A stretch of 64,000 nt of DNA from the NCBI GenBank assembly GCA_021209875.1, contig JAGYVD010000003.1, forward strand, positions 744,001 to 808,000, in the 5' to 3' direction. Positions 51,420-53,832 of the stretch are shown here, piece by piece. Within the stretch, counting starts at the first letter, position 1. Each line of letters begins with the position of its first letter. Source of the DNA: Rosellinia necatrix. Taxonomy: Eukaryota; Ascomycota; Sordariomycetes; Xylariales; Xylariaceae. The notes under the pieces are model-generated. The model ran no database searches and was not told the origin of the DNA. It saw nothing but the letters and a program-made list of their open reading frames with translations. The translations under genes were made by a program, and so were the position numbers.

Positions 51420-53832
51420 ATGCCGTCCACCAACAATGCTCCCAAGCCTGTACGCTCCCATGACCTGCTCAGTACCTATCCCTTCGAGCTATATGCTAAC
51501 TTATCGATAGTGGGATGTAAGTGTCGCTGCACTGGTATCATGAACGTTCGCTGCTGATTTAGGCCAAAAGACCGATGATATCGACAAATGGAAGTATGTG
51601 TCTTGCATTGGTTTTTCCATTACCCTCCCCCAGGTTGCGCTTTCCATTTTCGTTATCAGATACTAACCCCTAATTCCATAGGATCGACCCATTTCTACCT
51701 TCGTGAGTGCATATTGGTCATTTTCTTCTTATTTTTGACGCTACTATGGAACACCAACCTCCGTACCCAATAGCGTTATCCTTGTGGGATTCTGGATACA
51801 TAGTCGCTCCTCAAAATATGCTCCCGGGTGCATTCACTGACTATAGAATACTAAAGCGATAATGCTGCTGGCACACTTGCCGAGGAAAGCTCTTTTATTG
51901 TTCTGTTCCCAAAGTATCGTGAGGTATGATTTCCCACCTGACCTCATGAGTCTGTCACTAAGCCCCCATAGGTCTATCTTCGCGAGGCTTGGCCCGGCGT
52001 GACGAAAGCGCTCAAGAATATTGGCATGTGAGTACTATCATGAACCAGCTAGTCTCCCATTCCCATTGATCCCCCTTGCATGCGTCCAGGGGGGGAAATA
52101 CTAACCTAAAAAATGAAGTGCTTGCACTCTCGATCTAGTAAATGGCAGCAGTACGCAAATTTTATTCCCAGTTTCTACAATAGCAGCAACTGACTACTTA
52201 TCTGTGTAGTGGAAGTAAAAACAGGTATGTACAAAATACGTATTTCTGACATTTAATATCTTTTTTCATTCGAAACTATCTTGATCAACTTGCTGACCCT
52301 GTTTTAGTGAGTTGTTTATTGTTTATCAACATCAAAATAGCCAGTCAGCTACGGGCCCTCCGAAAACATCATCATTCTTTAGTACAAGACACTAACAATA
52401 CCAGACCAAGAAGACATGGGATCCGGCAGCTATACGTGAGCGCTCACCTGCTTCGTCTGTCTACAGCTCGTACTGACCAGAATCCAGTGAAGGCTCGTGA
52501 TCTCGTGAAGCTACTGGCACGCAGTGTTCCAGCGCCTGAGGCTCTACGCGTACTCCAGGACGATGTTGCCGCCGACGTGATAAAGATCCGAAATCTGTAA
52601 GTAGCTTAACCTGATGCAAGAAGCTTCTCGGATTCCACTATAAACCAGATCGCTGACAACAACAGCGTAAATAATAAAGAGAAATTCGTAAAACGCCGAC
52701 AAAGATTGTTGGTAAGTAATATCCCACCCGACATCCACGTCACTACCCTTCGTGCCTGTGTGGCGTTTGCTAACTTGGCTGCCACAGGGTCCTAATGCCG
52801 CTACACTGAAGGCGCTCCAGCTTCTCACAAGCACCTATATACAGGTTCGAATTTCCCGATCAAATTCACACCCTTCTTTACGCTGTCCCAAAGAATGAGC
52901 TCGGATACTTTTTGTCTTTTGGTCTCTCTGAGTCACGTGGATACCATCTCTATTGTCCCAAATTATTTAAATACTAATACAACACTCTGGAGTAGGTTCA
53001 GGGAAATACGGTCAGTGCTATTGGTGGATACAAGGTATGACACGTTCCCTACATGACAACGTGTATGGCAGAGTATTATTAAACTCAAATAAGGGTCTGA
53101 AAGAAGTACGCAGAGTTGTCGAGGACACTATGCACAACATACGGTACGTTTGCCCAGCCTTTTATTTCTCTCACTTCCATTTCATGCCAAACTAACCCCT
53201 TGTAGTGAGTAGATATTGGCATTTTATCTATCCGTGAAGCCGGCACGGACGGCATAAAATTATCAAGGTTAAACTAACAAGTAACAGACCCTATATATCA
53301 AATTAAAGGTAAAATCACTATGTCAACGCATTTCTCGGGGTTTACTAACATCTACCACAGAACTCATGGTAAAACGAGAATTGGCCAAGTGAGTAGTAGC
53401 CTCAACCCGGCGCCACCCGGATGCCTCTTGTCGCGGTGTAGTACGTTATGGAAAACAAATACTTACTATGTACTGCCCCATAGAGACCCATTACTAAAGA
53501 ATGAGTCCTGGGACCGCTTCCTTCCCAACTACAAAAAGCGGAGTCTTAGCAAACGCCTCAAGCCTCACAAGGTCAGCGAGAAGAAACCGTACACGCCGTT
53601 CCCGCCAGCCGCGGAACCGAGCAAGGTGGACATGCAGCTCGAAGCCGGCGAGTACCATATTGGCCGCGACGCCAAGAAACGCATCGCCCAAGAGGAGCGC
53701 TTGGAGAAGCAGAAAGTCAAGAAGGAGGAGAAGAAGCGCGAGCGCGAGAAGGAGTTTATCGCCCCGGACGAGCCTGCGGACGGCGAACGGAAGAAAAAGA
53801 AGCGCAAAACCAAGGTGCAAGACGAGGAGTGA
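51420..53832 (+). CDS. krr1: KRR1 small-subunit processome component (KH domain)
   Basis: Nucleolar rRNA-processing factor needed for 40S biogenesis; 325 residues (yeast Krr1 is about 316). I place 17 exons: 51420-51449, 51511-51516, 51571-51593, 51682-51702, 51857-51923, 51972-52027, 52119-52150, 52210-52223, 52405-52435, 52488-52596, 52666-52711, 52788-52844, 52996-53034, 53094-53142, 53288-53308, 53361-53388 and 53484-53832. They sum to 978 nt with no stop. Conserved landmarks are all recovered: [54 protein letters not shown], the KH-like [34 protein letters not shown] and a Lys/Glu-rich C-terminal tail. Two intron positions are twin introns (listed separately). The 151-nt intron at 52845 has a weak GTTCGA donor. 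The gene is extraordinarily intron-dense for a fungal housekeeping gene. Confidence 0.9.
51511..51516 (+). other. 6-nt microexon of krr1 (Trp-Asp)
   Basis: TGGGAT between a 61-nt intron (GTACGC...GATAG, branch GCTAAC) and a 54-nt intron (GTAAGT...AAAAG). It supplies the W-D of the conserved [13 protein letters not shown] model that skips it loses both residues. Confidence 0.75.
52224..52404 (+). other. stwintron 1 of krr1, type [D1,2]
   Basis: Outer intron = G52224 + 52308-52404; inner intron = 52225-52307 (83 nt, GTATGT donor, GCTGAC branch, TTTTAG acceptor). Removing the inner intron joins G to TGAGTT, giving a GTGAGT donor for the outer intron (98 nt; CACTAAC branch, ACCAG acceptor). Final splice ACA|ACC after codon 83 gives MEVKT-TKKTWDP, as in Krr1 proteins. 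No single GT-AG intron with the strong donor keeps frame. Confidence 0.8.
53143..53287 (+). other. stwintron 2 of krr1, type [D1,2]
   Basis: Outer intron = G53143 + 53206-53287; inner intron = 53144-53205 (62 nt, GTACGT donor, AACTAAC branch, TTGTAG acceptor). Inner excision rebuilds GTGAGT for the outer intron (83 nt; AACTAAC branch, AACAG acceptor). Final splice C|AC forms His194 in NIHPIYQIKELM, the conserved Krr1 wording. A single intron from GTACGT would shift frame into a stop. Confidence 0.8.

Follow-up and report, generated by a model that had tools for sequence, protein, structure and literature searches.

The 64-kb stretch of DNA analysed here (the window) carries on its forward strand a gene for the KRR1 small subunit processome component (krr1), which encodes 325 amino acids once 16 intervening sequences between 17 exons are removed. 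The spliced model is complete, and outside the problem posed by two of its intervening sequences the gene is intact. Its product matches Krr1 chains in the PDB (best E value 1.7e-145, residues 1-320), and Krr1 proteins of Xylaria, Nemania, and Astrocystis, with 94-95% identity, are the first eleven of the 120 listed among 6514 matches, which supports the gene name given in an initial annotation and places the fungus in the Xylariaceae. We take the three aligned PDB chains, from their entry codes, to be those of Chaetomium, yeast, and human. Both problematic sequences read as spliceosomal twin introns (stwintrons) of the [D1,2] type in the spliced model, the enumeration of single introns, and a motif model; the constituent introns of the second were read from the sequence. 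The features are as follows (slashes here and below mark junctions).

51420-53832, + strand: krr1, 17 exons and 16 intervening sequences
52224-52404, + strand: predicted stwintron 1, [D1,2], phase 0, 181 nt
52225-52307, + strand: internal intron of stwintron 1
52224 (G) plus 52308-52404, + strand: external intron of stwintron 1
53094-53142, + strand: exon 5' of stwintron 2, 16 residues and the first base of a His codon
53143-53287, + strand: predicted stwintron 2, [D1,2], phase 1, 145 nt
53143, + strand: G1 of the split external donor of stwintron 2, giving GTGAGT when joined to T53206
53144-53205, + strand: internal intron of stwintron 2, GTACGT...CTAAC...TAG, 62 nt
53206-53287, + strand: remaining external intron of stwintron 2, TGAGTA...CTAAC...CAG, 82 nt
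53288-53308, + strand: exon 3' of stwintron 2, the remainder of the His codon, PIYQIK, and one base

At stwintron 2 the last exon base is C53142 and the next is A53288. Removal of all 145 nt joins AAC ATA C/AC CCT ATA (N I H P I) and yields the peptide TMHNIHPIYQIKELM, which aligns without gaps to the three PDB chains shown; within it, NIHPIY is identical in all three. Taken as one GT-AG intron, the stretch 53143-53287 is off by one base. When G53143 is retained, the frame shifts and runs into a stop after MHNIRPYISN, whereas full removal keeps the conserved frame, and removal of 53144-53205 alone gives ATA CGT GAG TAG with an immediate stop. The motifs of a [D1,2] stwintron are all present, namely a 5' hybrid of G and a full internal donor (GGTACGT at 53143), an internal branch word and acceptor that abut the remainder of the external donor (CTAAC...TAG/TGAGT), and an external branch word and acceptor (CTAACAAGTAACAG). 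According to PMC9024468 (section 3.4), a stwintron is equally readable as [A2,3] if a G follows it directly; the base 3' of both krr1 stwintrons is an A, so that stwintron 2 can be read as [D1,2] but not equally as [A2,3]. The coordinates of the initial annotation are exact against the sequence and the spliced model, and its type assignment, the rebuilt GTGAGT donor, the His codon in a conserved Krr1 stretch, and the branch words in both nested introns (CTAAC in each) are borne out as well.

We enumerated single GT-AG, GC-AG, and AT-AC introns across stwintron 2, leaving the remainder of krr1 unchanged. None of the 50 GT-AG choices keeps the frame without a stop, which confirms the off-by-one junction that had been noticed earlier. 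Eight of the 150 choices do keep it (4/41 GC-AG and 4/59 AT-AC), and all eight score below the stwintron model against each of four relatives; single introns were rejected here on account of frame or stop, or of lower scores.

Stwintron 1, which the initial annotation had also placed in krr1 as one of the same type, is present at 52224-52404 with the same anatomy and a spliced junction VKT/TKKTW, in a region around VKTTKKT that has no gaps against the three aligned PDB chains. Of 249 single introns tried there, 10 retain the frame (five GT-AG, five AT-AC). The eight of these that were compared were rejected, as they add residues or lose conserved ones (e.g., VKT), and all of them score lower against the four relatives.

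The motif model used here (model A) is the published [D1,2] stwintron expression (PMC9024468, section 2.1). On both strands of the window it matches only the two krr1 stwintrons. In 100 shuffles of the window in 1-kb blocks there were on average 0.25 matches, with a maximum of two, equal to the number observed, and when the krr1 span (+ strand) was shuffled 1000 times, the mean was 0.006 matches and no shuffle gave two.

Taken together, the motifs, the need to keep the frame, the conserved protein sequence, and the recurrence of this arrangement elsewhere in the genome make it very probable that 53143-53287 forms a spliceosomal twin intron of the [D1,2] type. Two splicing reactions in a fixed order are what we infer from this sequence. 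By intron definition, the spliceosome would first excise the 62-nt internal intron (53144-53205), and G53143 would join T53206, creating GTGAGT as the donor for an external intron of 83 nt. A second, ordinary reaction would excise that external intron, ending in AACAG at 53287, and only after both excisions would the frame for NIHPIYQIKELM be restored. The predicted half-spliced intermediate is AACATACG/TGAGTAG and the predicted mature junction AACATAC/ACCCTATA.

The Krr1 annotations of relatives bear on how this arrangement should be read. They were compared as proteins only, so the codons behind their residues are inferred. Among the 120 Krr1 proteins listed of the 6514 matches, 19 are named Xylaria, Nemania, Astrocystis, or Poronia, and six of these (P0015, P0016, P0019, P0020, P0047, and P0052, from Xylaria and Nemania) together contain 13 internal indels that are 3 aa or longer and look disrupted at the junction of stwintron 1, of stwintron 2, or of both. 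Six of the 13 indels lie at most 4 aa from junction 8 (stwintron 1) and five as close to junction 14 (stwintron 2), while every other krr1 junction has at most three, with long gaps touching several junctions. The other 101 listed proteins, including those of other Xylariaceae, contain four such indels, none of them at a stwintron junction. The 13 intact annotations are compatible with a stwintron and with a plain intron alike. Presumably, the disrupted annotations are artefacts of gene callers. At the stwintron-2 junction, Krr1 of Xylaria acuta reads NI-RYVRYSILS-NPIY and that of X. venustula NV-RYVQ; RYV after NI or NV (P0015 and P0047) fits read-through of C-GG-TAC-GT, and read-through of the window itself gives MHNIRYV. 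At the stwintron-1 junction, Krr1 of X. telfairii reads VKT-VSCFIL-TKK, and the window reads VKTVSCLLF once the internal intron of stwintron 1, but not the external one, is taken out. The X. telfairii residues thus fit a common external donor GTGAGTTGT but are no proof of a stwintron, because a plain external intron would read alike. These proteins suggest that stwintron 2 was inherited from an ancestor common to other Xylaria species and was not newly inserted; the sign that stwintron 1 is shared among relatives is weaker.

It might be argued that 53143-53287 is a plain 144-nt GT-AG intron and that the extra G53143 stems from misassembly or from a frameshift mutation in this copy; C/GTACGT...AACAG/AC would need just one base less. 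This is very improbable, since RYV in the annotations of two relatives requires both Gs and therefore speaks against G53143 as an assembly error. The same one-base problem recurs in stwintron 1, which has a nested acceptor and TGAGT of its own, as well as in the frame of 12 other loci, and the remainder of krr1 is intact. Removal of the whole stretch in one step, from a donor shifted one base upstream (GG...AG) with U1 on GTACGT, would give an identical mRNA. Such a reaction would leave the internal branch word, the TAG, and the TGAGTA unexplained; the full motif set is found 0.006 times per shuffled krr1 span but is present twice. The cases described in PMC12403724 mostly have an intermediate, with one-step excision leaving one G; we give this possibility hardly any credence. 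As the one-G product is a mis-splicing published for genuine [D1,2] stwintrons (PMC12403724), reads joining 53143 to 53288 would not speak against a stwintron.

The initial annotation had further suggested that a recent burst of insertion at G/GTRAGT donors gave rise to both krr1 stwintrons, a proposal on their origin and not on their splicing. Two stwintrons of one type in a single gene would agree with it, and sequence-similar, species-specific stwintrons have been published for the Xylariaceae (PMC12403724). However, each part of stwintron 2 (53144-53205 and 53206-53287) has one match in the genome, itself, with no second copy and thus none of the similar copies of the sister type. Among 14 sequences compared by BLAST at an E value of 0.05 (both krr1 stwintrons, eight of the supported loci described below, and the candidates L035, L044, L049, and L057), only stretches of 12-25 nt matched apart from self matches; stwintrons 1 and 2 did not match each other, and the sole match of stwintron 2 was with L049 and covered 25 nt around the internal acceptor. 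In our own test, which is not the published self-complement alignment, the ends pair no better than those of 56 (stwintron 1) and 61 (stwintron 2) of 200 shuffles; whole-fold z values are -0.84 and -1.73, respectively. An introner with target-site duplication likewise found no backing for stwintron 2, with no copies and, by eye, no repeat at the exon edges CATAC / ACCCT. Along with the RYV residues after NI or NV in X. acuta and X. venustula, these results do not support a recent burst, which we regard as unlikely. Because no copies of the two parts of stwintron 2 were found, BLAST matches are short, and end pairing stays within the shuffles, the krr1 stwintrons appear closer to the "uniquely occurring" class than to the "sister" class, which propagates.

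The same arrangement was searched for across the genome with patterns for the internal half of a [D1,2] stwintron, which gave 7, 39, 25, and 19 matches in sets that overlap, compared with 1, 15, 5, and 5 when the control was reversed patterns; one of the patterns matched the internal half of stwintron 1 again. Outside krr1, 66 loci, several of them overlapping, were screened by open frames, with four matches of the 39-match pattern on contig C9 left out. This screen is crude, as it chose the wrong acceptor for krr1 stwintron 1 itself (L047). Sixteen loci with long open frames were then picked by eye and tested by Pfam or PDB homology, and in 12 of them, listed here, a family or structure match spans the joined junction. 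Single-intron enumeration covered the two krr1 stwintrons only.

L003: Aminotran_4, match spans the junction (a short piece failed, a longer one passed the Pfam cut-off narrowly)
L004: Sulfotransfer_4, match spans the junction
L006: Rrp9, match spans the junction (PDB match)
L007: fibrillarin (nop1), G000:C8:3330897-3333964, likely real [D1,2] stwintron at L007:1501-1673 (PDB match)
L009: RdRP, match spans the junction
L022: short-chain dehydrogenase, match spans the junction
L038: P450, match spans the junction
L050: Helicase_C, match spans the junction (removal of the internal intron alone also leaves an open frame)
L056: Spb4, match spans the junction
L061: sugar transporter, match spans the junction
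L065: DUF1996, match spans the junction
L068: PTR2, match spans the junction (narrow pass of the Pfam cut-off)

For L035, L044, L049, and L057, which stand outside the 12, no Pfam or PDB match lies clearly across the junction. A second candidate in the fibrillarin gene (L007:1033-1200) was rejected as a stwintron, as it reads as two plain introns flanking an 8-nt exon; this apparent exon, CATCGTCA, encodes the His-Arg-His of EPHRH, and the stwintron pattern had matched it falsely. The genome probably holds further stwintrons beyond those supported, because the patterns restricted gaps, donors, and branch words. Judging from these sequences, stwintrons seem to be nothing unusual in this genome, much as in Hypoxylon sp. 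CO27-5, for which 117 are reported (PMC9024468). Of the 13 genes in which a [D1,2] stwintron is supported, four belong to ribosome assembly, namely krr1 (with two), rrp9, nop1/fibrillarin, and spb4. It is conceivable, if quite unlikely, that the [D1,2] stwintrons of this lineage concentrate in such genes and have been kept there because slow two-step splicing, or the frameshift from one-G mis-splicing, coordinates ribosome production; the concentration is a lead only, because conserved genes are the easiest to choose and to confirm.

Stwintrons of the [D1,2] type are published for the Xylariaceae (PMC12403724), and several stwintrons within one gene are already in print, so the kind found in krr1 is already described for this fungal family. 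The gene krr1 was not found in the main texts on stwintrons that were searched, and no paper among those searched names krr1 together with stwintrons, but it may stand in supplementary gene tables. The closest likeness is to the "uniquely occurring" [D1,2] stwintrons of the Hypoxylaceae (Fekete et al. 2022, PMC9024468), which have the same nested order of donor, branch word, and acceptor, fit model A, and have no sequence copies found, as in krr1. With 145 and 181 nt, the krr1 stwintrons lie inside the 114-313 nt given for that class, but they occur in another gene and another family (Xylariaceae). According to PMC9024468 (section 3.3), 68 of 81 "uniquely occurring" stwintrons are conserved in position in all or most of the Hypoxylaceae examined. 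The "sister" [D1,2] stwintrons that propagate (Fekete et al. 2021, 2025; PMC8469720, PMC12403724) share the nesting of donors and the fungal family; unlike these, the krr1 stwintrons have no similar copies that we found and no end pairing beyond that of shuffles, and their branch words stand 5-6 nt from the acceptor, compared with almost always 14 in the "sister" stwintrons of the Xylariaceae (PMC12403724). The lipS [D1,2] and bioDA [D2,3] stwintrons (Flipphi et al. 2017, PMC5639578) are likewise conserved in position in conserved genes, although these are other genes and their distribution is far wider than that of the krr1 stwintrons. The model proposed there has the internal intron arise within the donor of an older intron.

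With krr1, two stwintrons of unique sequence join those already described, and at least one is apparently common to other Xylaria species. Being conserved across eukaryotes, the gene is a good site for timing the birth of internal introns by comparison of Xylariaceae genomes. Gene calling that is aware of stwintrons should improve annotation in the family, as six of the public Krr1 annotations for Xylaria and Nemania look disrupted at the stwintron junctions.

Further observations concern the gene and its surroundings. Intron 12 of krr1 (window 52845-52995) has an unusual donor, GTTCGA, and AG/GTTC at both ends, resembling a target-site duplication. The base composition of the window is otherwise about 50% GC, with a 4-kb segment of 67.7% GC at 20001-24000 and a 16-kb island of 15-32% GC at 28001-44000, which may be a centromere or a block of mutated repeats.
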